64,000 bases of DNA from Eubacteriales bacterium. Its GTDB lineage: Bacteria; Bacillota; Clostridia; Lachnospirales; Lachnospiraceae. The stretch lies in contig JAUNGM010000001.1 in NCBI GenBank assembly GCA_030524545.1, positions 124,001-188,000 on the forward strand, in the 5' to 3' direction. Made by a program: the position numbers and the translations under genes. Positions within the stretch are counted from its first letter, which is position 1. Every line of letters begins with the position of its first letter. Under the pieces are notes generated by a model. It was not told where the DNA came from. It saw nothing but the letters and a program-made list of their open reading frames with translations, and did not search any database. Positions 357 through 53,918 of this stretch are shown here, piece after piece.

Positions 357-1103
357 CTATTCTTTATTACGATATTTCCAGATTAATCGAATAATCTTTA
401 TGTCATCTATAAAATATCTTTTGAATAAGCGCCTTGGCTCATTGAGGAACCGGTAAAACCACTCAAGTCCATGATTACTCATCCACTTTGGCGCTCTTTT
501 TATTCTTCCCGCAAGAAAATCCACGGTTGCTCCTGCACAAACAGAAACCTTTGCTCCGTATTTCAAATAATTTTCAAATATCCACTTTTCCTGTTTCGGG
601 CATCCCAGACATGCCAATAAAATGTCAGGATGAACCCTTGATATCATATGATTTATTTTTTTTAGTTCCTCCTCATCTTTGTCAAATCCCAACGGAGGTT
701 CATAAGTTCCGGCAATTACGATATCCGGAAAATCTTTTCTTAAATTTTCTGCTGCCTGTTCAGACACTCCATTTCGTCCGCCTAAAATGAAAATCGTGTA
801 TCCTTTATCTTGAGCCAGCTTACAAATGCCTAATACCAGATCCGATCCGGAGACTTTTTCCTTGACTGGCCTTTTATGCCATTTTGCGATCCACACTAGC
901 GGCTGTCCATCAACCAGCACCATATCGGCTCGGTCTGCAATCTCCTTAAAATAAGAATCGTTCTCAAGTTTCAGAACAACATCAACATTAATCTCCACAA
1001 CAAAAGCTGGAATTCCTTTTAAAATCAACTGATCTATAGATCGTACAGCTTCTTCGAAATTCAGGTTATTGACATATGTATTAAGCAACGGTTGTTTTAA
1101 CAT
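357..1103 (-). CDS. WecG/TagA/CpsF family glycosyltransferase (GT26)
   Basis: A 248-residue glycosyltransferase of the WecG/TagA/CpsF family, which adds ManNAc-type or related sugars to an undecaprenyl-linked acceptor on the inner face of the membrane. Seen: the EINVDVV segment, the VLVDGQPLV motif with Asp65 (the position of the proposed catalytic base in TagA), the GG.NGVS nucleotide-sugar segment, LACLGCPKQEKW, and GATVDFLAGRIKRAPKW. The C-terminus is rich in Arg and Lys (EPRRLFKRY), as expected of the membrane-docking tail. A longer reading to 1211 would overlap gmhA. The ATG at 1103 has AAGGAGAG just upstream and gives the usual family length, so it is preferred. It sits between gmhA and the nucleotidyltransferase in the glycan cluster. 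Donor and acceptor cannot be read from the sequence. Confidence 0.88.
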   Translation of the reverse strand: MLKQPLLNTYVNNLNFEEAVRSIDQLILKGIPAFVVEINVDVVLKLENDSYFKEIADRADMVLVDGQPLVWIAKWHKRPVKEKVSGSDLVLGICKLAQDKGYTIFILGGRNGVSEQAAENLRKDFPDIVIAGTYEPPLGFDKDEEELKKINHMISRVHPDILLACLGCPKQEKWIFENYLKYGAKVSVCAGATVDFLAGRIKRAPKWMSNHGLEWFYRFLNEPRRLFKRYFIDDIKIIRLIWKYRNKE

Positions 1104-1180
1104 ACTCTCTCCTTCTTTTATTGCATTTTTATGTACAGGCCTGATTTTCCTTACAGAATTTTCTTTCTTAAACACATAGT

Positions 1181-1825
1181 TCAGAAAAAATAATCCTCCA
1201 GCATTAAACACCAGCAGTGATATACCGGGAGATGCAATTCCTGAACCTTATACGTCTCCACCTCGGGTACTTTTACAGCTACATCAGAAACTGCAGCCAG
1301 TTCTCCGCCTGCCGCACCTGTAAGTCCAATTACTTTTATGCCAAGAGCTCTGGCAACAATCGTTGCACTCATAATATTCTGACTGTTCCCAGAGGTAGAA
1401 ATTCCCAAAAACACATCTCCCGCTCTACCAAAACCATACAACTGCTGCGCAAAAACCCCCAGCCCATCCACATCATTGATATAAGCCGTTGTCAATGCTT
1501 CATGAGCCACCAGCGGAATCGCCATCAAACTCTGCTCCAAATTATGTGCAAGATTTGTCCCTCTGACAGGATCCAGGCTTTTTAATTTCTGCGCAAATTC
1601 CGCAGATACGGGACGAGGTTTCCGGAAACGCTTCATCAGTTCCCCTGCGATGTGCTCCGCATCTGCCGCCGAACCGCCATTGCCCGCAATCAAAAGTTTT
1701 CCACCGCAGGAAAAACATTCCTCCAGAATAAAATAAGCATCAATAATTTCCTGCTTAATGCACCTCAATGCAGGATATCTGTCTAATAAACTTTCAAGAT
1801 GCTTCTGCAATTTTTGTTCTAACAT
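1181..1825 (-). CDS. gmhA: Sedoheptulose-7-phosphate isomerase (GmhA, SIS domain)
   Basis: A 214-residue SIS-domain protein matching GmhA, which converts sedoheptulose 7-phosphate to D-glycero-D-manno-heptose 7-phosphate, the first step of nucleotide-heptose synthesis. Seen: the phosphosugar loop GNGGSAADA (48-56), a nearby His58 and Glu62 in HIAGELM, a second phosphate loop STSGNSQN, and the C-terminal QELHLPVYH segment with the zinc/active-site residues typical of GmhA. Length is close to E. coli GmhA, with about 20 extra residues. It is followed by the WecG-like transferase and preceded by the heptose kinase gene, 32 bases away. That context supports GmhA over other SIS isomerases such as DiaA. 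It is cytoplasmic. Confidence 0.87.
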   Translation of the reverse strand: MLEQKLQKHLESLLDRYPALRCIKQEIIDAYFILEECFSCGGKLLIAGNGGSAADAEHIAGELMKRFRKPRPVSAEFAQKLKSLDPVRGTNLAHNLEQSLMAIPLVAHEALTTAYINDVDGLGVFAQQLYGFGRAGDVFLGISTSGNSQNIMSATIVARALGIKVIGLTGAAGGELAAVSDVAVKVPEVETYKVQELHLPVYHCWCLMLEDYFF

Positions 1826-1857
1826 TTCTACTTTCCCTGATATCCTTATAAAATAGC

Positions 1858-2853
1858 TTAATCCTCTGTTTTCGAAGAATTATAAATCACTCTGGAACCA
1901 TTACCTTCAAATTTAAACGGAATATACATCAATTCCTTCAATACCTCTTTTACCCTCTGCTGATTTTGGGGAGGTACATAGAATATAAGAAATCCTCCGT
2001 TTCCAGCACCAAGAAGTTTGCCTCCATAGGCACCTGCATCCATTCCCTTCTGGTACAGACAGTCTATACAGTCTGTCGAAATCGCTCTCCCTGTCCGTTT
2101 CTTCATCTTCCATGTCGTATCCAGTAAATATCCAAACTCATCCAAATCCCTGGATTCATCTGTAAGAACCTTTTCTGCCTGTTCAACAAGCCCATACATA
2201 CGCCGAAGAACATCATGGTTTTTTTTATCTGTTACATGATTTGAACGCTGTACATCCGAAGAAAGCCTGCTGAAACCGGTAAAAAACATTAAGAGATTTT
2301 CATTCAGTTTTTTCTTTCTCTCCAAAGAAAAAGCAATTGGAGTCACTTTATATCCGTCTCGGTTAAAGTCCACCCTGTTAAAACCTCCATAAGCTGCCGC
2401 TATCTGATCCTGCCATCCCCCGGCTTCCCTGCAAAGTTCCCGTTCAAGAAAAATTGCTTCGTCCGCCAGCTTTTTCTTATCTATACCCGTATTCCCCCGA
2501 AGCGCATGAAATGCATTCAACATTCCAACTGCAAAAGAGGAACTGGTTCCAAGTCCGGATCTGGCTGGCAGATCAGCTTCATAAGTCAATCGAATCTTAT
2601 GCATATTCATCATTTTCATAGCATTCCGAATCGCAGGATGCTGAATATCTTCCGTATCAGCAACCCTTTCAATTCTGGAATAGGAGAGTTCTGTTGAATA
2701 ATCAAAAAATCCCGGCAAATATCTTACCGTCACATAACAGTATTTATCAAATGTTGTGGACAGTACAGCCCCTTCATTCTCCCTGAAATAATCTTCTATG
2801 TCTGTCCCTCCGCCAAAAAAAGACATACGGAACGGGGTCTTGGTTATAACCAT
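1858..2853 (-). CDS. hddA: D-glycero-D-manno-heptose 7-phosphate kinase (HddA-type GHMP kinase)
   Basis: A 331-residue GHMP-superfamily kinase. The N-terminus TPFRMSFFGGGTD is the substrate-binding signature of HddA/fucokinase-like members, and PARSGLGTSSSF (about residues 96-107) is the ATP phosphate-binding motif. LLGAGNGGFLIFY near the C-terminus is the third GHMP motif. HddA phosphorylates heptose 7-phosphate at C1 to give the alpha-1,7-bisphosphate that leads to GDP-heptose. Adjacency to gmhA supports this role. The start at 2853 has GAGGAAT upstream, and the gene begins 4 bases after the VanZ-like gene ends, so the two are surely co-transcribed. The family assignment is firm; heptose rather than another sugar phosphate is inferred from context. 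Confidence 0.87.
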   Translation of the reverse strand: MVITKTPFRMSFFGGGTDIEDYFRENEGAVLSTTFDKYCYVTVRYLPGFFDYSTELSYSRIERVADTEDIQHPAIRNAMKMMNMHKIRLTYEADLPARSGLGTSSSFAVGMLNAFHALRGNTGIDKKKLADEAIFLERELCREAGGWQDQIAAAYGGFNRVDFNRDGYKVTPIAFSLERKKKLNENLLMFFTGFSRLSSDVQRSNHVTDKKNHDVLRRMYGLVEQAEKVLTDESRDLDEFGYLLDTTWKMKKRTGRAISTDCIDCLYQKGMDAGAYGGKLLGAGNGGFLIFYVPPQNQQRVKEVLKELMYIPFKFEGNGSRVIYNSSKTED

Positions 2854-2857
2854 GTCT

Positions 2858-3535
2858 CTATTCCTCTATTCTATGTTTTTTGCGTTCCCTCGCCCTCCAT
2901 ATCTCAACTGCCAATGCTCCCAAAGCAGTTCCAATGGTATTCGAAAGAATATCGTCGATATCACATGTTCCGGAATGCATAATAAGCTGTCCAGTTTCGA
3001 TTACAACCGTAAAAAGCAGACCGAAAGAGACCGCAGAAAGAAATTTTTTCTTATAGCAGCCGCTGGTTATAAGAGGAAACAGGAGTCCCAGAGGAATAAA
3101 CAACGCTATATTCAGCAAAAAATGATTAAAGTTTTCCAAGCCATCATCCTGCATCCAATTTAGCAGTTCCATCTGCACAGCGGAATTCGACCCTCCCTCA
3201 CGCATAAAAGTAGTAATATATAATACCGCGAAAATATAAGCAATAAATGTAAGCAATACACCAATTTGAAATTGGGGCTTCTCCCTTATGATCATATAGA
3301 TTTTCCACACTGAAAATAAGCAGGAATATATAATAGCAACCGCATACAGAATCAACCCAGCCTCACCCAGATATCTCCCAACAGCTATAAACATTCCAAC
3401 GATACATCCGTATATCAGCAAGACACATCCTGCCAAATTGGATATAACTCTTTTATTTTCCGAACGTATCATTACGATACTTAACAATGTAAAATATCCA
3501 AGTATGATTAAAAGCATGCTAAAAAAGAAATCCAT
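2858..3535 (-). CDS. VanZ-like family membrane protein
   Basis: A 225-residue integral membrane protein with about five to six hydrophobic helices. The C-terminal half carries the VanZ-type pattern: NIALFIPLGLLFPL, a following TVVIETGQLI segment, and DIDDILSNTIGTALG, where the D-DI..N..G motif is characteristic. VanZ-like proteins are often found in surface-polysaccharide clusters; their biochemical role is poorly defined, apart from teicoplanin resistance in enterococci. Here the gene lies between the Wzz-BY-kinase and the heptose kinase, so a role in glycan assembly or membrane housekeeping is more likely than antibiotic resistance. The start is supported by AAAGGA upstream of the ATG at 3535. 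Confidence 0.8.
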   Translation of the reverse strand: MDFFFSMLLIILGYFTLLSIVMIRSENKRVISNLAGCVLLIYGCIVGMFIAVGRYLGEAGLILYAVAIIYSCLFSVWKIYMIIREKPQFQIGVLLTFIAYIFAVLYITTFMREGGSNSAVQMELLNWMQDDGLENFNHFLLNIALFIPLGLLFPLITSGCYKKKFLSAVSFGLLFTVVIETGQLIMHSGTCDIDDILSNTIGTALGALAVEIWRARERKKHRIEE

Positions 3536-3567
3536 AATGTTTTCCTTTACCTCAGTGTAAATCCATC

Positions 3568-5220
3568 CTATATATTATCCTGCTCATCTTTTTCATTTTG
3601 CTGATTACTTTCAGCCTGGAAGAGCAGATCCACGAAGCTGTCACTCGTGGTCACTTCTGAAGTTTCCCTTTGTGTTTCTGATCCACTGTCTCCGGCAAAT
3701 CCGGCAACCAGCGAGCTGATATTGCTGTCATCGCTTTCCGGAGAAATACCGTCCTGATTTTCCGTATATTCCAGATTCAGGTCCATCAGCGGTTCCGCCT
3801 GGCTTCTGGCTTTATTTTCTGCCTTTTTTATTTTTTCTTTTTCCTTGACAGGGTTTTTGATACCGCGTTCACTGACCTGGACTCCGTTTACAATACATCC
3901 CAGAATGCTGATGCCTGATTTTTCAATACGCTCCAGGGCATCCTTGATCTCCTGCATGGATGCCGTATCATAGCGGACCACAAACAGGGCATCGGATGCA
4001 ATCTGGTTCAGGCTCATAGGATCGGCAGTAAGTCCTACAGGCGCAGTATCCATTAGCACATAATCATAATGTTCCGCCAGCTTCCGGACAACGCTGAACA
4101 GGTTGCTGTCCAGCGGAATGGAACTTCTCTCAAGTACAGTAGGAAGGATATCCAGATATCCTGTCAGGTTAGTGACAGCCTCTTTCTCCGTAATATCCCC
4201 CGCATACAGTGCATTCAGGGAATGTTCGTAATCCACTTTATTCAGAAAAAGCCTTCCGAGAGTCGGATTTTTCATATCAAAGTCAATCAAAAGCACATGC
4301 TTCTCCAGATCCGACAACTGGATTGCCAGATTTGCGATCATGTTTGTTTTTCCCTCGTTTCTTAATGCAGAGGTAATGTAAATGATATGGGGCCCTTCCT
4401 TCTTTCTCAGACGGTTGCGGATAATATGCGCAGCCGAAGCAAAGCTCTCTCCTACCTCCGAACGTGAATCGTCCTCTACCAATATGGACTTTTTCTTATC
4501 AAAATAGGCTTTGTCATCTGCAATCTCACACAAAATTTCCAGTCCGTAGGCAGTCTCGATATCCTGTACATTAAGCAGGGTCGGGTGCATGATCAGTTCC
4601 AGCAGGGTAATTCCGATCCCAAGACCGAAGCCCAGCAGCGCCATGTAGCCCCAGAGAATGATATTGATACTTCCGCCGATCAGGTATTTGGAACTTGGTT
4701 CATTGATCACGGAAACACTGCCGATACTTAAGGTTTCCATCAGGATCTCGGGTGCCGTGCTGTTGATCTCGGAAAGGATCGTAATTCCTTCCTTCGAGCT
4801 GCGCCAGTACAGGGACATTTCAATGATCTGGGTTTCATTGTACTGAGTGAGAGACAGATTATCTGCAATATCCTTTGTCGTGACTCCCAAAAGCCCCAGA
4901 GAATCAATGATCTCTTTCAGCATCTTATCGCTTTTTAAGACATAGGCAACCGCATCCACCATATCTTCCGCCATATTGATGTCATTGTAATTGGGAAAAT
5001 CGTATCCGGAAGTAAACAATCCGGAATGCGTCTGTGTATTCACGGAAAAGGAGCTCGTAATAATGTATTCCTTGCTCATTTCGCCCCGCAGGTAGGAAAT
5101 ACCGGAGAGCACGATACCGATCAGCAGCCCCGCCGCTGTCAGCGCAGTTATCAGAATACGATGTTTGATAATTCCATACAGGACATCGCCGATCCTTATA
5201 TGAATCCCGTTATTCCTCAC
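3568..5220 (-). CDS. Wzz-BY-kinase fusion (polysaccharide co-polymerase and tyrosine autokinase)
   Basis: A 550-residue protein of the CapA/CapB (Wzc) type. The N-terminal Wzz part has TM1 at about 20-42 and TM2 at about 180-210, flanking an extracellular loop. The cytoplasmic ATPase has Walker A SALRNEGKT, Walker A' LLIDFDMKNP and Walker B VLMDTAPVG. The family controls chain length and export of surface polysaccharide by cyclic autophosphorylation. Two oddities: the loop reads GKT rather than the usual GKS/T-rich form, and the roughly 100-residue C-terminal tail is polar, acidic and nearly free of tyrosine, so the usual tyrosine cluster is missing. The apparent start is GTG at 5220, overlapping the upstream gene by 11 bases, with AAAGGAAAC before it. 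The tight coupling to the MotB-like gene is unusual for this family. Confidence 0.85.
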   Translation of the reverse strand: MRNNGIHIRIGDVLYGIIKHRILITALTAAGLLIGIVLSGISYLRGEMSKEYIITSSFSVNTQTHSGLFTSGYDFPNYNDINMAEDMVDAVAYVLKSDKMLKEIIDSLGLLGVTTKDIADNLSLTQYNETQIIEMSLYWRSSKEGITILSEINSTAPEILMETLSIGSVSVINEPSSKYLIGGSINIILWGYMALLGFGLGIGITLLELIMHPTLLNVQDIETAYGLEILCEIADDKAYFDKKKSILVEDDSRSEVGESFASAAHIIRNRLRKKEGPHIIYITSALRNEGKTNMIANLAIQLSDLEKHVLLIDFDMKNPTLGRLFLNKVDYEHSLNALYAGDITEKEAVTNLTGYLDILPTVLERSSIPLDSNLFSVVRKLAEHYDYVLMDTAPVGLTADPMSLNQIASDALFVVRYDTASMQEIKDALERIEKSGISILGCIVNGVQVSERGIKNPVKEKEKIKKAENKARSQAEPLMDLNLEYTENQDGISPESDDSNISSLVAGFAGDSGSETQRETSEVTTSDSFVDLLFQAESNQQNEKDEQDNI

Positions 5221-6937
5221 GTTTTGTTTCCTTTCTTGTTTCTTTCCTGTCTGAAGGTTTCTTTTTCTTCAGAAGCATTGTCACTGCAAAAATGCCAAAC
5301 AGAAGGATACAGCCGCCTGCAGCCGCTATCACAATATTCTGCATGGTCCAGATCGTTACGGAAAATTCCTGCAGAGCCTTATTTTCTGCAAATTCAAACT
5401 CATACTTTTTATTTTTATCTCCGTTCAGAAGTACGTAATAGCTTCCTCCCGGAAGATTTTCAAAGGTCTCTGCCGATCCGCTGGTCGTCCAGGTACGAAT
5501 CAGCTCGTCATCGCTGTTATACAATGCCATATTTGCATTTGAAACAGGTTTGCCGAAGAGTTCATCTTTCGCATCAACGGTTACACGCACCACATAGTTC
5601 ATAAGATCCAGGGAAATTTCTGCCTCATCCTCAATCCTTCCCTCTTCAGAAACAAAAATCTCTGCCGGGGTGTCATCAAACTTATAATTTTCAGGTGCAC
5701 TGATCTGCTGAAGCTGATAGGTGGTATTTTTTTCCAGATCTGTGAATATGATCTCTCCGTTTTTATCCGTCACCGCACTCTTCGACAGCTCCGGATCCTT
5801 CTCACAGATCAGGGCAAATTCCGCCCCCTCCAGCTTCAGATTTGTATAGAGTTCGTCTGTTAATTTCAGTTTGATCTTTGTTTTTTCACAGGAAAATTTC
5901 AAAGCTTCCGGAATACTTCCGTCCTTCTTTTCCACCGTGACATCCGTACTGTGTTTTATGCTGGCATAATACTGCGGTATGGTTCCCTGGGTGACCGTAT
6001 ATTGTCCCAGATACAGTTCCTTGCTCTCACCATAGCCTTCTTCATCGAAGGTTACTGTGTCAGCCAGCTCATTCCTGGCATAACGTACAGAGTTATCGGC
6101 AGTAATGATATCTTCTGCCGCAGTCACCTGAAAGGTGCCGTCCAAAAGCGGTTCGTGGGTTTCCATATCCTCGATCGTAATGGGAATCACGTTCTTGGAT
6201 GGCGAAATCTCGATGGATACCACATAGGGATCCGGCCAGTCATAAATATCATCAATATCAAATGGTACGGCCTCCGTCAGGTCATACCCCTCCAGTTCTG
6301 TGATCTGTTTAAAATAGTAATGGCCTTCCTCCACCTTTTCCGGAAGATAGAAAACACCTTCTTCTGTGGTTTCGTAATTCCGGTATTCGATCTTCTCAGG
6401 ATAATAAGTATTCAGGAAACGCAGCGCACCTCCGTCGCCTTTGACCTGTTCCTCGTATAATTCAAAGGTGATTCCGGCTTCCCGGATCGCACGGCCTGTT
6501 TCTTCATCAACGACAGTCGCATAAACAGCAGCCTTGTTCCAGTCCTCCCCATTGTGGGTAGGAAGGGGGTATTCGTAATTATATTCCGGGTCGGTTCCTA
6601 TGCCGGTGCCGCTTCCACCGCCGCCATCTCCGTCATAATCTTCCGTACCGTCATCCTCTTCCTCCTCATCTTCTCCTTTGTCGTCATTGCCTCCGCTGTC
6701 CTCGTCGTTTTCGGTTTCCGGATAATGGTATGCCTCCTGTGTTTCATCACCCAGTTCATCATCCACGTTATAGCTGTCTCCGACTTCAGCATCCGGCTGC
6801 GAATTCTCCGGTATCTGCATCAGATACAGGATCAGCAGCATAATGATCAGCAGAAGGACAAGTACGAGAGCTGACATAAGATCCGTATTGGACTGCCAGT
6901 AATTGATCTCCCCATGAGTCCCTTTCTTTTTTTTCAT
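5210..6937 (-). CDS. MotB-like plug fused to SpaA/CnaB-like surface stalk
   Basis: A 575-residue protein with an unusual architecture. Residues 12-41 resemble the MotB/ZorB plug helix: NYWQSNTDLMSALV followed by a long hydrophobic run, with Asp19 at the position of the proton-binding aspartate. Next is a very acidic linker (about 42-115, Glu/Asp/Gly rich). About 400 residues follow of repeated beta-rich modules of the prealbumin/SpaA/CnaB kind (for example TDKNGEIIFTDL, GTFQVTA, YYVLLNGD). A second membrane helix lies at about 535-556, with a Lys/Arg-rich tail. There is no OmpA peptidoglycan-binding domain and no LPXTG motif, so both termini are probably cytoplasmic with the stalk outside. 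The ATG at 6937 overlaps the MotA-like stop as ATGA; a GTG at 6952 is the alternative start. The role is inferred: the partner of the channel subunit encoded just before it. Confidence 0.72.
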   Translation of the reverse strand: MKKKKGTHGEINYWQSNTDLMSALVLVLLLIIMLLILYLMQIPENSQPDAEVGDSYNVDDELGDETQEAYHYPETENDEDSGGNDDKGEDEEEEDDGTEDYDGDGGGGSGTGIGTDPEYNYEYPLPTHNGEDWNKAAVYATVVDEETGRAIREAGITFELYEEQVKGDGGALRFLNTYYPEKIEYRNYETTEEGVFYLPEKVEEGHYYFKQITELEGYDLTEAVPFDIDDIYDWPDPYVVSIEISPSKNVIPITIEDMETHEPLLDGTFQVTAAEDIITADNSVRYARNELADTVTFDEEGYGESKELYLGQYTVTQGTIPQYYASIKHSTDVTVEKKDGSIPEALKFSCEKTKIKLKLTDELYTNLKLEGAEFALICEKDPELSKSAVTDKNGEIIFTDLEKNTTYQLQQISAPENYKFDDTPAEIFVSEEGRIEDEAEISLDLMNYVVRVTVDAKDELFGKPVSNANMALYNSDDELIRTWTTSGSAETFENLPGGSYYVLLNGDKNKKYEFEFAENKALQEFSVTIWTMQNIVIAAAGGCILLFGIFAVTMLLKKKKPSDRKETRKETKREE

Positions 6938-8496
6938 GACTCCTGTCTCCACTTCATCATTTTCTCAAACTCCTCAATCGAAACGGACTTTGACAGATAG
7001 AATCCCTGTCCTTCCGTAATTCCGTTTTTGCGGAGGATTGACATCTGCTCCATATTTTCAATCCCTTCTGCCACCATAGATACACGCATATTCCTGGCCT
7101 GCTCGGCAATGGAAATAATGTTCTTACTGTCCTTGCAGAAACGGAGATCCAGCTTATACGCATCTGCATACGGATGAATCTCTCCTGCCCGCAGTGCAAA
7201 AAAATCACCTTTAAATCCGTCTACAACAATCCGGAAACCTTTTTGCTGCACCTGTTTTTCAAATTCCGAAGTAATATTCCGCGCTTCCAGATAAGCATTC
7301 TGGGCAATGTCAAACTCGATACATCTCGGCGGAAGTCTGTATTTCTGGATCAGTTCGGAAAACAGCTCGGAAATATCAAGTGCCAGAATATCCGTCTTGG
7401 AAATATTTACGGAAATCGGAACCGGACGGATGCCTTCATCGATCCATTCCCGCATCTTCGCACAGATCTGATTCCAGATATACTGATCAAGCTTTGTTAT
7501 GTATCCGTTCTTTTCCAGTACGGGAATAAATACAGAGGGTGCCACCATTCCAAGCTTCGCATGATTCCAGCGCACCAATGCCTCTGCACCGATGATCTCC
7601 TGTGTGTTCAGGTCATATCGCGGCTGCAGGTGGAAAGTGAATTCCTTTTTCTGTAAGCCTGACAATATCTGCGGCATTAACACAGACTCACTGCCTGCAT
7701 TGCTCTGAAACGCCATATCCGAATTTGCCAGGGAAAAGTTCCCATTCTGCGGAAGCCGGTTCAAACGTTCCTGAATCTGCTGCATTTCTTTTTTCTGAGA
7801 ATATCTTGTTTGTTCTTCCACGGAAGGAATCACATTCCGCTGAAACAACGTTGTGAACATACCAAGGTCACGAACCATGACATTCCAGAGGATTTTGTAC
7901 ATGATATTAAATACGATGGAAAGAATAACGCCGGAAATGGATGTATAAAATGCCACCTGGATACCGCCGAAAAGTGTCTGTATACTGGTCAGCGCAGCAT
8001 CCACAGAGCTGACCTGAATACTGCTGATACCTGTGATCAGACCGATAAAAGTACCCAAGAGTCCAAGTCCTGTCAAAGTACCCGGTATCTGCAGCAGAAC
8101 TCCCTGCCAGCATCTTAATGACAGCTCCTCTTCATTGATTGCTTCATCAATTCCGCCTACGATCATGCCGTTTTTTCGTTCCTGCTCTACTTTTCTTTTA
8201 TATTCCTCAAATAGCCGATCCAGCAGCTTCTGCCCGAAAAAAGATTCCATTTTGGATACGACAAGCCATGGCATGGATGCCTGTGTTTCCCGGGCCTTTC
8301 GAATATTCCCGATGGCATTGTCAAATCCGGTGCTGTACTGAATCAGCGGTATGACGCCGAAGATATCCCCCAGCAGAATGATTGCTGTCATCGTCCCGAC
8401 AATGATCATAGAAAGCCAGTCCGGTGCGGAAACTGTCAAAGCTCCCGCTCCTGCCAATATGGCCAAATTCACACTATAAGAAATCCATTTCTTCAT
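6934..8496 (-). CDS. MotA/ExbB/ZorA-like channel subunit fused to a degenerate EAL domain
   Basis: A 520-residue fusion. Hydrophobic helices lie at about 5-22, 28-50, 136-158 and 178-207. The third and fourth carry the MotA/TolQ/ExbB signature GTLTGLGLLGTFIGL and, later, GGIQVAFYTSISGVILS, closest in style to ZorA. A short helical linker (about 225-255) leads to an EAL domain at 285-515. EAL (305-307), Asn364, Lys448, Glu477 and Gln497 are kept. The E-x-T-E motif reads D-I-A-Q (396-399), and the catalytic Asp-Asp pair reads Asp-Gly (426-427) with a disrupted loop 6. It is therefore probably a poor or inactive c-di-GMP phosphodiesterase and may act as a c-di-GMP sensor. The start at 8496 has GGGAGAG upstream; an ATG at 8511 lacks one. 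Confidence 0.75.
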   Translation of the reverse strand: MKKWISYSVNLAILAGAGALTVSAPDWLSMIIVGTMTAIILLGDIFGVIPLIQYSTGFDNAIGNIRKARETQASMPWLVVSKMESFFGQKLLDRLFEEYKRKVEQERKNGMIVGGIDEAINEEELSLRCWQGVLLQIPGTLTGLGLLGTFIGLITGISSIQVSSVDAALTSIQTLFGGIQVAFYTSISGVILSIVFNIMYKILWNVMVRDLGMFTTLFQRNVIPSVEEQTRYSQKKEMQQIQERLNRLPQNGNFSLANSDMAFQSNAGSESVLMPQILSGLQKKEFTFHLQPRYDLNTQEIIGAEALVRWNHAKLGMVAPSVFIPVLEKNGYITKLDQYIWNQICAKMREWIDEGIRPVPISVNISKTDILALDISELFSELIQKYRLPPRCIEFDIAQNAYLEARNITSEFEKQVQQKGFRIVVDGFKGDFFALRAGEIHPYADAYKLDLRFCKDSKNIISIAEQARNMRVSMVAEGIENMEQMSILRKNGITEGQGFYLSKSVSIEEFEKMMKWRQES

Positions 8497-8550
8497 GAAA
8501 GTCTCTCCCATCTAATCAAATTCTCATAGTTGCCCCGTTTCGTTTATGAT

Positions 8551-9846
8551 TTACATATTTGTCAGCAGTCTCACACAGAATACCCCGTCTTCCACAGAAT
8601 AGCGGAACACTGCATGATTCTTATTTGCATATGCTTTTACACTCCTCATTCCGTATCCATGGCCTGTTCCTTTTGTAGATAACGGCAATCCCGTAGAATG
8701 GGAAAATCTGCATGTCCCCGTAAACGTATTGGAAATTTCCAGCATAAGCTGTTCCTTTACAGGAAATACGCGGATACTCACCTTGCGTTCTTCTGTTTTT
8801 TCGATGTCGGATACCGCATACATGGCATTTTCCAATAGATTGGCGATTACAGTAGCCAGTTCAAATTCATTCACTTCATTCAGGTGCTTCGGAACATCCG
8901 CTGAACAGGTAAACATGATATTCTCTTTTCTGGCTTTTGCCTCGTATCCGGAGATAATTCCGTTTATTGTAATATTCTCACAAAATCTTCGGATGGGAAC
9001 AGCAGCAAGCTTGGTATCCATCTGTTCCAGCAGTGATTTGATCTGCTCGGTCTTCCCCTCTTCCAGATAAACGCCTATCATCTGATATACATGACGGCTG
9101 TCATGTCTCATCAGCTTCAAATTCATCTCCGATTCCCGAAGCACCTCTGCTTCTCTCCGAAGCCCGCTTGCATAAATCTCCAAAAATTCATTGCTTCTCT
9201 CCAGGTCATTTTCCATATGCTGCTGGGAAAATGATTTGATTCCCATAATATAAATAACACCCATCAATATCATAAGGAAAAAGGCCGACAGCCAGATTTC
9301 CTTTCTTTCACAGATAGTATAGGGCCAGCAGGTCATGGTATAAGCCACTGCATAAAATAATGCAGGAATCACGCAGAGTCTCTTCCAGTTCATGGAATCT
9401 GTTTCCATTGCATTTAAGTAGTGCCACCGCAGCATAATGACCAGAATTACAAGCAAAAAACCATGGATTGCTGTCTGAACCAGTAAGGCCGTAACAATCT
9501 GCCGGGTATAGTCAAACACAGCCATAGAGATGATATTGCCCGGAAGCACATAGGTAGCAGAGGATATTCCTGTAAAAAAGGCACGGAAATCCCTGTAATC
9601 AGAAAGCAGCCATGCAGTTACCTGTACAATCACAATCTGAACAATTGTAATAGGAAGCAGTCCCCCTGCACAAAGCTCTGTCATAAAATACAGATAGTCC
9701 AGTATTCCTGTACCTATCAGACAACCCAACGTCAGAATTCCTGAGATATACCTGTTATAACGAAGCGTTAAAAAGAGCAGCAGAAACATCATCAGAAAGA
9801 TCATTGAGATACGATACTGAAGAAACGAACAAAAAGGACTTACCAT
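8551..9846 (-). CDS. AgrC-like GHKL sensor histidine kinase
   Basis: A 431-residue membrane kinase. The first 210 residues form about six hydrophobic helices (sensor/transport-like domain). A coiled linker follows, then the dimerisation box RHDSRHVYQ at about residue 247 with the phospho-acceptor His, as in AgrC/ComD-type HPK10 kinases. The GHKL ATPase has the N-box ANLLENAMYAV and the G-rich lid GTGHGYGMRSV near the C-terminus. Its start overlaps the end of the LytTR regulator gene, so the two form a two-component system. Only 54 bases, with no visible terminator, separate it from the MotA-EAL gene, so it is probably co-transcribed with that system and may control it. No AgrD-like peptide or AgrB gene was seen nearby, so the input signal is unknown. 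Confidence 0.88.
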   Translation of the reverse strand: MVSPFCSFLQYRISMIFLMMFLLLFLTLRYNRYISGILTLGCLIGTGILDYLYFMTELCAGGLLPITIVQIVIVQVTAWLLSDYRDFRAFFTGISSATYVLPGNIISMAVFDYTRQIVTALLVQTAIHGFLLVILVIMLRWHYLNAMETDSMNWKRLCVIPALFYAVAYTMTCWPYTICERKEIWLSAFFLMILMGVIYIMGIKSFSQQHMENDLERSNEFLEIYASGLRREAEVLRESEMNLKLMRHDSRHVYQMIGVYLEEGKTEQIKSLLEQMDTKLAAVPIRRFCENITINGIISGYEAKARKENIMFTCSADVPKHLNEVNEFELATVIANLLENAMYAVSDIEKTEERKVSIRVFPVKEQLMLEISNTFTGTCRFSHSTGLPLSTKGTGHGYGMRSVKAYANKNHAVFRYSVEDGVFCVRLLTNM

Positions 9847-10589
9847 GATTTTCTGCCCTCCTTAGAAACAAAACTGATATATCTGTCCTGTATTTCCAAC
9901 AGCCTTCTGCGGGCAATGGGAATCTCTTTTCCGTTTTCCATGATCAGCACATTCGATTGCAGTGACTGAATATATCTCATATTGACAAAAAAAGATTTAT
10001 GAGGCTGAATAAACCCTTTATCCTGTGCAACTGATCCAACTGCTTCTTCAAAAGAACCTCCCCGCCGGACGCTTACCACTTCATTGCCATTGCATATGGT
10101 ATATGTCATCGTTCTCAGGTTGTTCTCTATATACATGATTTCTTCCATTACAATACTGGTCATGGAATCCCCGTCGCTGACCAGCAGTTTGTGCCTTGGC
10201 CGCATGCGGAATATAGCATAGGCAAAATCCAGGGCAGAGAAGAGTTCATTCAGGTCCACCGGCTTTACCAGATAGCGGATCGCATGATTTTCATAAGCTT
10301 CCAGTGCATATTCCGATGATACAGTCACATAGATGATAGACGCGTTAAAATTATTTTTTCTGATCAGTTTCCCTAATTGGATTCCATCGGTCCCTTGCAG
10401 CATAATATCCAGCAGATATAAATCAAAATCCAGCTTTTTCTTTAAGAGATACTGCTGTAAATTCTCTGAATCCCGCAGTGTGTCAATCCTGCCTGTTATT
10501 CTGTCATTATGATCAAGCCATTGCTGTACACCCGAACGCAGTATTTCCAAATCCTGTATCTTATCATCACAAATTAAGATTCGAAACAT
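9840..10589 (-). CDS. LytTR-family response regulator
   Basis: A 249-residue regulator. The receiver domain (1-120) shows the acidic pocket CDD, phospho-acceptor Asp61 in YLLDIMLQG, and the conserved Lys in RYLVKPVD. The C-terminal LytTR DNA-binding domain shows IMYIENNLRTM, FIQPHKSFFVNM and EIPIARRRL. Such regulators bind direct repeats upstream of target promoters. The start chosen, ATG at 10589, has GGAGG 6 bases upstream; a longer reading to 10619 does not. The gene overlaps the kinase gene that follows. It heads the transcription unit leading into the MotA-EAL and glycan genes, which makes those its most likely targets; this is inference. Confidence 0.9.
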   Translation of the reverse strand: MFRILICDDKIQDLEILRSGVQQWLDHNDRITGRIDTLRDSENLQQYLLKKKLDFDLYLLDIMLQGTDGIQLGKLIRKNNFNASIIYVTVSSEYALEAYENHAIRYLVKPVDLNELFSALDFAYAIFRMRPRHKLLVSDGDSMTSIVMEEIMYIENNLRTMTYTICNGNEVVSVRRGGSFEEAVGSVAQDKGFIQPHKSFFVNMRYIQSLQSNVLIMENGKEIPIARRRLLEIQDRYISFVSKEGRKSW

Positions 10590-10643
10590 ATAAACCTCCG
10601 GTTTTTTATAATATGGCATTTTTCATTTCGTTTATTATTTGGT

Positions 10644-11879: not shown

Positions 11880-13967
11880 TTATTCAGCATCTCTGTCGTC
11901 TGTCAGATTCGGTTCACAGCATGCGCAGTCCGGCTCCAGCTCAAAGCTGATGTCGTCAAAGAGAATTGCATCATCCTTACCAAGCGCTCCCGGAATAATG
12001 GAGAAGGTATTGGAAATACCATCCTGAGCATCTTTGAACGGAAGCTTGGATACGGAGCTTAAGGAAGCAACTGCACCGTGGCTGTCTCTGTGATGCATCG
12101 GGTTCGCACCTGGTGCAAACGGCTGTCCTGCTTTTCTTCCGTCCGGAGTAGATCCGGTAGCCTTACCATATACAACGTTGGAAGTAATGGTAAGAATTGA
12201 AGTTGTCGGGATACCGCCTCTGTAAGTATGGTTTCCCTTTACATAGTGCATAAACTCATGTACCACATCATATGCGATATCATCTACACGGTCATCATCG
12301 TTTCCGTATTTCGGGAAATCACCCTCTACTTCGTAGTCCACAACAATGCCGTTTTCGTCACGGATGGTCTTAACCTTTGCATATTTGATTGCAGACAGGG
12401 AATCTGCTACTACGGAAAGTCCTGCAATACCAGTTGCAAACCAGCGGGTTACTTTCTTATCATGAAGTGCCATCTGGATTCTTTCGTAGCAGTATTTGTC
12501 ATGCATGTAATGAATGATATTCAGCGCATTGACATAGACGCTGGCCAGCCATTTCATCATGTCGTTGAATTTTTCCATAACTTCATCATAATCCAGATAC
12601 TCGGAAGTGATCGGACGGTATTTCGGTCCTACCTGCTTCTTGCTTACCTCGTCTACACCGCCGTTGATCGCATAAAGAAGGCATTTTGCAAGGTTTGCAC
12701 GGGCACCGAAGAACTGCATTTCTTTGCCGACACGCATGGAGGATACGCAGCAGGCGATCGCATAATCATCTCCGTGTGTCACACGCATCAGGTCGTCGTT
12801 CTCATACTGGATGGAGGAAGACATGATGGAAGTCTTCGCACAGAAACGTTTGAAGTTCTGCGGCAGTCTGGTGGACCAGAGAACTGTCAGGTTTGGTTCC
12901 GGAGCAGTGCCGAGGTTTTCCAGGGTGTGAAGGTAACGGTAGGACATCTTTGTAACCATGGAACGTCCGTCAATTCCCATACCGCCGATGGACTCTGTTA
13001 CCCATGTCGGGTCACCGGAAAACAGTGCGTTGTATTCCGGAGTTCTGGCAAATTTTACTAGACGCAGCTTCATGATGAAGTGGTCTACAAACTCCTGGAT
13101 CTCCTCCTCTGTGAAGGTTCCGTTTTTCAGATCGCGCTCTGCGTAGATATCAACAAAGGTAGAGGTACGTCCCAGGGACATTGCAGCGCCGTTCTGCTCT
13201 TTGATAGCAGCCAGGTAGCCAAAGTACAGCCACTGGATTGCTTCCTGTACGTTTGCAGCAGGTCTGCCGATGTCATATCCGTAAATCTTACCTAACTCTT
13301 TCAGTTCTTTTAAAGCCTTAATCTGTTCGGACAGTTCCTCACGCTCTCTTGTAACATCAGAATACATGATGATCCTGGTGGTATCTTTCTGTTTCTGCTT
13401 GTCTTCGATCAGACGGTCCACTCCATACAGAGCGACACGTCTGTAATCGCCGATGATACGTCCGCGTCCGTAAGCATCCGGAAGACCTGTGATGATATGG
13501 CTGGAACGGCATGCCCGCATCTCCGGTGTGTATGCATCAAATACACCGTCATTGTGTGTCTTCCTGTGTTTCGTAAAGAATTCTACGATCTCCGGATCCA
13601 CATGATATCCGTTGTCTTCGCACGCCTTGATCGCCATACGGATTCCGCCGTAAGGCTGCAGGGAACGTTTGAACGGCTTGTCTGTCTGGAAGCCGACGAT
13701 CTTTTCTTTTTCTTTATTTAAATATCCCGGTCCATGGGATGTGATTGTAGAAATGATTTTGGTATCCATATCAAGGACGCCGCCTTTGGCACGTTCTTCC
13801 TCGGAAAGCTCCATAACCTGTGCCCACAGCTCCTTTGTTGCTTCCGTCGGCCCTGCCAAAAAGGACTCGTCACCCTCATATGGTGTGTAATTCTTCTGAA
13901 TGAAATCGCGCACGTTAATCTCTTTTTCCCATACGCCTTCTTTAAAAGAAGTCCATTCCTGTCTCAT
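11880..13967 (-). CDS. pflB: Pyruvate formate-lyase catalytic chain lacking the glycyl-radical domain
   Basis: A 695-residue PFL catalytic chain that converts pyruvate and CoA to acetyl-CoA and formate in mixed-acid fermentation. The barrel and active-site cysteine pair (IACCVSSM, Cys406-Cys407) are intact, as is [10 protein letters not shown]. Unlike the usual enzyme of about 760 residues, it stops after GALGKDD plus a short acidic tail containing C-A-C-C, so the RVSGY domain is absent and is encoded just downstream. The ATG at 13967 is placed by AAGGAGG 6 bases before it; an ATG at 13973 lies too close to that site. A strong promoter lies upstream and the unit ends at 10751. The split looks natural, because both parts are well conserved. 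Confidence 0.93.
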
Positions 13968-14008
13968 AAACATCCTCCTTTAAAAAACTGTTTTTCGGTG
14001 ATGACTAC

Positions 14009-53025: not shown

Positions 53026-53918
53026 GAGGTTTTGCTGACTACCCTGTATAACCATGCAGCAGGCAGGAACCTGATCAATGATTATCTTGCCGCAAAGACC
53101 CCTTATTCATCCTGCGGTATGATGATCGTTGACCTTGATTATTTCAAAAATGTCAACGATACTTACGGCCATCTTTTTGGAGATAAGGTGCTGTTTGAAT
53201 TTTCCAGGCTTCTTCTTTCCTGTTTCGGCAATGAGGATATTATTATAATGGCAGGCGGAGACGAATTCGTTATTTTCTTAAAGGACATCGCCCACAGCGC
53301 ATTGATTCCAGGGAGACGGCCAATCTCCTTGTACAGGGCGATGCCAAGACAGTTGTTTATTCCGCCATGTACTGCGAGGGCAAATATATCGGCGCCATCT
53401 CTTATGTTGTCTGTCAGGGCAAGCGTTATTGGGGCAAAGAGCATTTAAGTCAGCTTAGTGAACTGACCAAACTCATTTCTGCCCATCTTACCAAGGCACA
53501 GGCGCTGAATGCTTCCCATCTGGGAATCCTGTCCGTACCGGAATTTGACCCTCTTACCGGGCTGCTCTCTTTCTCCCGCTTCCGCGATGAGGTGGAGCGT
53601 ATAATCGTAGGCAATGAACACCAGACTTATATCATGGTATACAGCGACCTGGAAGATTTTAAATATATTAACCAAAAATACGGCTACAGCATGGGCGATC
53701 AGCTTCTGAAGGAATTCAGCAACTACATCATCCGCTGCCTGAAAACCGAGATCAATGTATATTTCACCAGAATCGTAGCTGACCAGTTTGCCCTGTTTAT
53801 GCCATACGAAGAATCCGATAACGCAGCAGAGCAGATCCATAAGATCAATGCTGAATTCCTTCGCCGGCAGCAGGAATCCTTCCCGGAAGTGACGCTCCGC
53901 ATCCGCTCAGGTATTTAG
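53026..53918 (+). pseudogene. Decayed GGDEF-GAF-GGDEF protein
   Basis: Two frames together spell parts of one large signalling protein. The first (to about 53290) is a GGDEF domain with LYNHAAGR, VDLDYFKNVNDTYGH and AGGDEF. Its frame then runs into unrelated residues. From about 53301 a different frame reads the end of a GAF domain (TVVYSAMYCEGKYIGAI), then a second, degenerate GGDEF domain with DPLTGLLSFSRF and RIVADQF where GGDEF should be. It stops at RIRSGI (53918), where an EAL or similar domain would normally follow. The N-terminus, the middle and the C-terminus are all missing. It is clearly broken, though a sequencing error at the junction cannot alone explain the losses. Confidence 0.85.

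Follow-up and report, generated by a model that had tools for sequence, protein, structure and literature searches.

The 64,000-nucleotide window analysed here, positions 124,001 to 188,000 of contig JAUNGM010000001.1 (assembly GCA_030524545.1) from a Eubacteriales bacterium of the family Lachnospiraceae, carries three adjoining genes encoding a MotA-like channel protein fused to an EAL domain (MotA-EAL), a MotB-like protein with SpaA domains (MotB-SpaA) and a Wzz-type polysaccharide co-polymerase fused to a BY-kinase-like ATPase (Wzz/BY-kinase). The MotA, MotB-SpaA and Wzz/BY-kinase genes, hereafter the triad, form one co-inherited gene unit, which lies among glycan genes in 12 of 18 loci. 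On balance we lean, if not strongly, towards reading the triad as a new family of 5:2 ion motors, of the MotAB/ZorAB type, that is specialised in Clostridia for assembling surface polysaccharides. As a tentative proposal, to which we give somewhat less than an even chance, single-membrane bacteria would here have an undescribed class of ion-driven machine: a motor of MotAB type would act directly on the Wzz/BY-kinase co-polymerase and power or ratchet polysaccharide release, and a catalytically dead EAL domain, fused to each channel subunit, would serve as a built-in clutch for cyclic diguanylate (c-di-GMP).

Ion-driven 5:2 motors are known in flagella, envelope upkeep, nutrient uptake, gliding, secretion and phage defence; in single-membrane bacteria, to our knowledge, no such motor is established for the assembly of capsule or exopolysaccharide. 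Little is understood of what energy, if any, helps Wzx/Wzy-type polymers to leave the membrane, and a motor and a chain-length co-polymerase in one unit would make this question testable by a single point mutation in the channel Asp. The triad also offers, as found in nature, a motor subunit fused to a c-di-GMP receptor fold, together with natural versions without this fold. In some gut Clostridia, the construction of the sugar coat may be powered or steered by an ion-driven motor.

Distribution, gene order and phylogeny of the triad

The open reading frames of the window place all three genes on the minus strand, confirming the locus, domains and coordinates that an earlier note on this DNA had described. 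MotA-EAL (525 amino acids; Pfam MotA_ExbB 7.4e-11, EAL 2.8e-45) occupies 6934..8511, with ATG 8496 as the conserved start since Met6 is invariant in the alignment of MotA-EAL members, MotB-SpaA (Pfam SpaA 6.1e-27) occupies 5210..6952, giving 580 amino acids from GTG 6952 with ATG 6937 as the likely start, and the PCP-2a-like Wzz/BY-kinase (550 amino acids) occupies 3568..5220. The overlapping junctions reported in the same note were also recovered: MotA-EAL and MotB-SpaA share a 4-base ATGA (6937-6934) when the latter starts at ATG 6937, or 19 bases with GTG 6952, and MotB-SpaA overlaps Wzz/BY-kinase by 11 bases.

Eighteen triad loci were counted (the window, L021, L022, L053, L055-L061, L117, L118, L125-L128 and L131) after L054, the reverse complement of L022, and duplicate short loci of refetched places had been dropped. 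L131 (MT835828.1) stands outside the main EAL, tree and MotB tables and was checked separately, and L022 was excluded from the Wzz tables and the tree comparison because its Wzz gene is cut by the contig end. The order MotA, MotB-SpaA, Wzz/BY-kinase was found in all 18 loci, which come from at least three families, so that the survey proposed in the earlier note came out in favour of the three genes being conserved together. Among 33 triad junctions measured, 31 show an overlap or a gap of at most 58 bases, the exceptions being 91 bases in L061 and 147 bases in L056. The MotB of L056 falls under the BLAST threshold, yet it aligns with the family and matches SpaA at 5.6e-25. An EAL domain is present on MotA in 13 of the 18 loci, and the five with a bare MotA all belong to one genus.

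Within the genus of the window, the MotA-EAL fusion was found in at least 9 of 64 genomes, the own genome included. A scan of genome contigs returned L021 and L022, with 75 and 72% identity, and a third match, L023, which covers the EAL part only. In a sample of 299 genomes of the family, 17 contain a MotA-like match and two of these the fusion (the own genome and G129). A profile built on the MotA part gave at least three matches in 391 genomes from the class, namely the own genome, G698 (L117), which carries a fusion with a strongly altered EAL, and G1004 (L118), whose MotA of 271 amino acids lacks EAL; 398 genomes of the phylum gave at least one match, in the own genome only. These class and phylum counts are lower bounds, at most six candidates per genome having been scored. 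In the family of G1004 five of 115 genomes match, which belong to a single genus and without exception carry a bare MotA, and G698 is the only match in its family (one of six genomes) and its order (one of 28). A full-length profile search of the order, in which mostly three candidates per genome were scored, argues only weakly against further fusions, because it returned unrelated EAL proteins and few candidates were scored. A profile served to check for the absence of EAL at 56 loci of other MotA-like genes, with some places counted twice.

The triad locus L131 lies in a record from human faeces that was deposited as 'Bacteriophage sp.'; this record holds a bacterial glycan cluster with the triad and is likely to be a bacterial scaffold under a wrong label. 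We also considered, and rejected, that the triad comes from a phage or plasmid, as there was no plasmid match, a scan with two short patterns showed no relative in IMG/VR, and the sole match in the phage collection was this unannotated scaffold with bacterial glycan genes.

In the tree, the triad MotA proteins are united in one clade (support 0.94), with nine other MotA-like proteins falling outside it. Inside this clade the bare group is supported at 0.99 and the EAL-bearing group weakly, at 0.58, so that the tree would fit either gain or loss of EAL. The patristic distances of the three protein trees correlate across 16 taxa, at 0.909 for MotA and MotB, 0.922 for MotA and Wzz and 0.882 for MotB and Wzz. 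MotA-like genes are common in the genus, with a match of some kind in 58 of 64 genomes, which might favour the three genes being chance neighbours that share no function; however, all 18 loci of this particular MotA clade keep the order across at least three families, and their trees are broadly congruent. We therefore rejected chance adjacency, the probability of which we regard as close to negligible. By comparison, the neighbours listed for other MotA-like genes, at 19 loci, include no match to MotB-SpaA or Wzz/BY-kinase.

The motor-like proteins and their EAL and SpaA domains

The MotA/ZorA-like membrane domain (residues 1-262, 7726..8511, minus strand) is the part of the first protein that alignments show to be common to all 18 loci. 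Across 13 members the stretch LTGLGLLGTFIGL is invariant at 9 of 13 positions, and AFYTSI is invariant throughout. The nearest solved structures are ZorA chains (8vvn_C, 2.4e-16; 8qyy_A, 4.3e-15). Its partner, MotB-SpaA, has an N-terminal membrane helix (6824..6880) directly preceded by the invariant Asp24 (6881-6883), and this W-x4-D motif followed by a helix was present in 17 of 17 family members, the motif also in L131. By analogy, Asp24 is a candidate ion-binding channel residue. The same motif was found in all 16 paralogous MotB proteins, which are those adjoining MotA genes in the 19 other loci (L071, L078 and L079 yielded none); they are 304-388 amino acids long with one helix region. 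Two features of 5:2 rotary motors such as MotAB, ExbBD and ZorAB, the MotA_ExbB membrane domain and a partner helix with Asp, are thus found in the triad.

The solved Zorya structures (8VVN, 8VVI, PMC11890865; 8QYD and others) include the nearest relatives of both the MotA domain and the MotB N-terminus. One rival explanation makes the triad a Zorya-type anti-phage system. The top PADLOC matches are indeed ZorA (6.8e-16) and ZorB (2.1e-6) models, in a scan of the window that covered the triad and the following VanZ gene, and the MotB-SpaA N-terminus also matches ZorB chain 8vvi_A (5.3e-4). However, nearly all of these matches are confined to the membrane parts, 18 of 19 PADLOC ZorA matches of MotA stopping by residue 267, approximately where the membrane part ends. 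Where ZorA has a tail the triad has EAL or nothing, and where ZorB has a peptidoglycan-binding domain the triad MotB has a SpaA chain and a second helix. Moreover, its neighbour is Wzz/BY-kinase instead of ZorC, ZorD or ZorE, and the Pfam and NCBIfam models gave no match of ZorC, ZorD or ZorE type among the nine genes at 357-10619. Lacking the ZorA tail, an OmpA-type ZorB and such neighbours, the triad was rejected as a member of Zorya, and we hold a Zorya-type defence function to be very improbable. The flagellar stator MotAB likewise shares the MotA_ExbB domain and the MotB helix with a conserved Asp, but its MotB carries an OmpA-type peptidoglycan-binding domain, of which no match was seen in any of the 13 MotB-SpaA proteins scanned (11 aligned members, L117 and L118). 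Because the defining features examined fail, we named the triad neither a flagellar stator nor Zorya.

Two MotA_ExbB matches (E <= 0.001) were found in the own genome, the window gene and a ZorA-like gene. A paralogous pair (L063 6659-9319, G000:C54), in the same genome outside the window, resembles the triad in its related MotA and its W-x4-D MotB helix. It differs in that the MotA-like protein, of 552 amino acids, has a long tail (coiled-coil by eye) in place of EAL, and in that the MotB has one helix region and an OmpA domain (9.1e-13), this being the one paralogous MotB examined for OmpA. That OmpA-type MotB matches a ZorB1 model at 1.1e-66, and the pair lies near genes that by eye resemble phenylalanyl-tRNA synthetase chains; its listed neighbours include no match to the triad or to glycan genes. 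Such a ZorAB-like pair without adjoining ZorC and ZorD could be misnamed by defence scans.

The EAL domain of the window (6988..7662) is predicted to be catalytically dead, so that it would not hydrolyse c-di-GMP. In catalytic EAL domains, metal 1 is bound by the first Asp of the DDFGTG motif (Asp160) and metal 2 by the second (Asp161) (PMC5301497). The second Asp is replaced in the window by Gly432 (7216-7218), and in the alignment this position is Gly in 12 of 12 family EALs, as it is in the separately checked L131, whereas all 29 ordinary EALs used as controls have Asp there. None of the 12 family EALs keeps the Gly of DDFG and one keeps the second Glu of E-x-T-E, as against 29 of 29 controls in both cases; the controls are among the best-scoring proteins of the full-length profile search and not a random sample. 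Other pocket residues are largely retained: the first DDFG Asp, the EAL Glu, the Asn, the Lys and the Gln are each kept in 11 of 12, the exception being L117, which has lost nearly all key residues, while all 12 keep the pocket Arg and 10 keep the Glu of AEG. The domain thus retains the pocket expected of a receptor-type EAL and lacks one of the two metal-binding Asp residues of a catalytic one. In three pairs, the ratio of nonsynonymous to synonymous substitution rates (dN/dS) was 0.05-0.06 for the EAL part and 0.06-0.09 for the MotA part, rough values given that dS is near or past saturation. This closeness suggests that, in the pairs compared, the EAL is under purifying selection, and is therefore maintained and not decaying.

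A membrane-tethered c-di-GMP phosphodiesterase for which MotA is merely the anchor would agree with the good EAL match and with the first DDFG Asp, EAL Glu and Asn kept in 11 of 12 members. Set against this are the two catalytic positions lost in 12 of 12 (the second DDFG Asp) and in all but one of 12 (the second Glu of E-x-T-E), and the fact that MotA is the conserved core and occurs without EAL. We rejected an active phosphodiesterase on the loss of the second DDFG Asp, and find the anchor explanation scarcely credible. Non-catalytic EAL domains are found in LapD and FimX, which in this respect resemble the triad. YcgR in Escherichia coli (PMC10140304) and DgrA/MotI in Bacillus (PMC7064775) are c-di-GMP receptors that act on MotA as a clutch or brake, the latter in trans, whereas the triad EAL is fused to the channel subunit itself.

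With 17 GGDEF matches in the own genome, c-di-GMP signalling is plausible. Two of the GGDEF matches in the window are adjacent on the plus strand (53035-53298 and 53544-53915, corresponding to G000:C41:177035-177298 and 177544-177915), in separate frames of 185 and 227 amino acids, and may be two genes or one interrupted gene. Near the triad of L061, a large second protein (916-4179, 1087 amino acids) has an EAL-like C-terminus with 31% identity to the window EAL (7e-43).

Beyond its N-terminal helix, MotB-SpaA has an ectodomain of SpaA/prealbumin-like domains (approximate limits 5381..6529), with three or four SpaA stretches in the window depending on the Pfam threshold, and SpaA domains were found in 11 of 11 aligned members as well as in L117 and L118. 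By eye, the proteins contain a Gly-rich acidic linker, and no whole-length model for MotB-SpaA was among the Pfam or NCBIfam models seen. According to hydropathy, a crude predictor of helices, a second helix followed by a basic tail lies near the C-terminus in 17 of 17 MotB-SpaA proteins (5267..5353 in the window, where the tail is rich in Lys and Arg), and a motif scan found no LPXTG in any of the 17. The MotB-like plug with SpaA/CnaB-like domains of the earlier note hence keeps its channel Asp and its SpaA domains, and has to be amended by the second helix and by the missing OmpA match. A collagen adhesion protein chain (6fwv_A) matches the ectodomain at 1.4e-9, and in the single domain aligned to it, l and q stand where the chain has K and E. 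These two positions are those of the isopeptide Lys and the catalytic Glu. Given the C-terminal membrane helix and the lack of LPXTG, a typical sortase-anchored adhesin was rejected, and the surface adhesin-like stalk of the earlier note does not hold in that sense.

The match of the SpaA domains to collagen adhesion and pilus proteins would fit a machine for surface movement or adhesion, in which, as in gliding systems, what moves at the surface is the SpaA chain, with the glycan as its track or glue, and the Agl motor of Myxococcus has a role both in gliding and in coat assembly (PMC3858216). In the triad, however, the ectodomain appears from hydropathy to be tied to the membrane at both ends, without a sorting signal in 17 of 17 proteins, and the partner is a co-polymerase in 18 of 18 loci. 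We consider such a machine quite unlikely.

The co-polymerase and a possible motor for polysaccharide assembly

The third protein combines a Wzz-type membrane and extracytoplasmic part with a BY-kinase domain, as in the PCP-2 co-polymerases Wzc, CapAB and EcpK/EpsV (PMC12004946). It has an AAA/BY-kinase-type Pfam domain and matches TIGR01007 (1e-22, below the family cut-off), CapAB chain 4jlv_A (5.6e-29) and Wzc chain 9i2q_D (2.4e-25, profile positions 150-473). Its Wzz part matches TIGR01006 at residues 49-235 (7.6e-6, below cut-off), with no match to the Pfam Wzz models, and hydropathy windows lie at 22-40 and 180-211. Unlike these co-polymerases, that of the triad has a fixed MotA/MotB partnership and lacks a Tyr-rich tail in 8 of 17 proteins (0 to 2 Tyr; the window, L021, L053, L055, L056, L057, L117 and L131). 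A C-terminal cluster of 4 to 9 Tyr per 25 residues is present in the other nine (L058-L061, L118 and L125-L128), and the window protein has at most one Tyr in any 25 residues past 430. The polysaccharide co-polymerase tyrosine kinase of the earlier note therefore stands as a Wzz/BY-kinase fusion and is weakened by the absence of this tail in the window and its nearest relatives. Co-polymerases paired with pseudokinases are known from EcpK (PMC12004946). In L021, the co-polymerase (12004-14004) carries an extra C-terminal stretch and a membrane helix resembling the end of MotB-SpaA (35%, 8e-19), the sole hint in the sequences of a physical link between the second and third proteins.

Further polysaccharide genes were found near the triad in 12 of the 18 loci (the window, L021, L053, L055, L056, L059, L060, L061, L117, L125, L126 and L131; L022 is too short to judge), and it is from this gene context and from the third gene itself that we infer the link to polysaccharide. 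In the mechanism that we propose, five MotA and two MotB would form an ion-driven unit. MotB should not spin freely, because the second membrane helix would hold each MotB chain outside the ring; MotB would then be a fixed or torsion-spring part and MotA would turn, or alternatively the SpaA chain itself might work as the torsion spring. In the flagellar motor the wall holds MotB and MotA turns, and in gliding models the inner part turns (PMC9389320). The SpaA chain would transmit movement or strain to the Wzz octamer and to the polymer growing beside it, which together are the most likely output, and this would ease polymer release, export or length control. Where present, the dead EAL on each MotA might act as a c-di-GMP-responsive sensor, clutch or brake.

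By analogy, the closest precedent for the triad would be the Agl-Nfs machinery of Myxococcus. It differs in being Gram-negative, with Nfs proteins and a Wza-type exporter, and we know of no EAL or SpaA parts in the Agl motor genes. Like the proposed machine, Agl-Nfs/Agl-Glt has an ion-driven motor, here proton-driven, on which the assembly of a surface glycan, that of the spore coat, depends, and both the motor and its channel Asp (AglQ D28) are required for sporulation (PMC3858216). Neither a MotA-EAL fusion nor a MotA/MotB/Wzz unit was described in the literature found by full-text searches, which extended to titles and abstract starts, with most subscription papers and bioRxiv outside their coverage; 'EAL' and 'polysaccharide' do not occur in the main texts of PMC12505986 and PMC9389320, nor 'EAL' and 'c-di-GMP' in PMC11890865.

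Alternatively, the MotA/MotB pair could be a sensor or regulator of ion-motive force, wall load or surface contact, which sets the assembly of the Wzz/BY-kinase octamer through EAL and direct contact. This would fit the predicted-dead EAL retaining most pocket residues and the GHKL/LytTR pair upstream of MotA-EAL, a LytTR match also adjoining the module in L058 and regulators, recognised by eye, lying in L118; where the Tyr-rich tail is missing (8 of 17), another control might have taken the place of phosphorylation. The conserved channel Asp and MotA core, however, fit active ion use equally well, and members of the family without EAL (f66) retain their Tyr-rich tails. We judge a sensor of this kind unlikely, while giving it more weight than any other rival.

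Several points weigh against the motor for polysaccharide assembly that we favour. Its 5:2 stoichiometry, ion flow, stalk movement, glycan extrusion and contacts with Wzz are all things that we infer. The module is patchy (genus, at least 9 of 64 genomes; family, 2 of 299; class, 3 of 391; phylum, 1 of 398; the own genome in each), L117 changes place among the three trees, and the agreement of these trees speaks for co-inheritance rather than interaction, as plain vertical descent would give it too. The inactivity of EAL stays a prediction, the first DDFG Asp and several pocket residues being kept in 11 of 12, and c-di-GMP control cannot be general, because five loci lack EAL and in a sixth, L117, it retains almost none of its key residues. 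No recognised glycan gene was present in the stretch fetched for L118, L127 and L128, so that coupling to export would there rest on the co-polymerase itself, and in L057 and L058 nothing beyond a BacA gene adjoining Wzz and a VanZ gene, respectively, was seen. From the module of the earlier note, a possible new envelope machine tied to glycan export, there remains a conserved gene unit that joins a channel pair of MotA/MotB type to a polysaccharide co-polymerase and matches no named system; the EAL does not belong to its core, given the five loci of another family without EAL and the degraded EAL of L117.

Neighbouring genes and further observations

Downstream of the triad, and on the same minus strand, the window encodes a VanZ-family membrane protein (2858..3535), which follows Wzz/BY-kinase, a GHMP sugar kinase related to the heptose 7-phosphate kinase HddA (1858..2853; NF049969 1.6e-40, below its cut-off), a GmhA-like phosphoheptose isomerase (1181..1825; TIGR00441 2.4e-38, below its cut-off) and a WecG/TagA/CpsF-family glycosyltransferase (357..1211; Pfam 1.3e-60). 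Of the 18 loci, nine have a VanZ-like gene close to the triad. Past the window edge (L062), homologues of the second glycosyltransferase (54%), a Wzy-like protein (45%) and a priming sugar transferase (41%) of L021 were found. Upstream, also on the minus strand, Pfam identified a GHKL sensor kinase 39 bases from MotA-EAL (8551..9846) and a LytTR response regulator whose gene overlaps that of the kinase (9840..10619).

DivIVA-like proteins adjoin the triad in L022 (105-722; 1.7e-4, under cut-off) and L059 (271-960; 7.6e-13), and might place the machine at poles or septa. Finally, in L126 a NusG-like gene with a KOW motif (6441-6947) lies between the triad and the glycan genes, and is perhaps a specialised antiterminator of the cluster.

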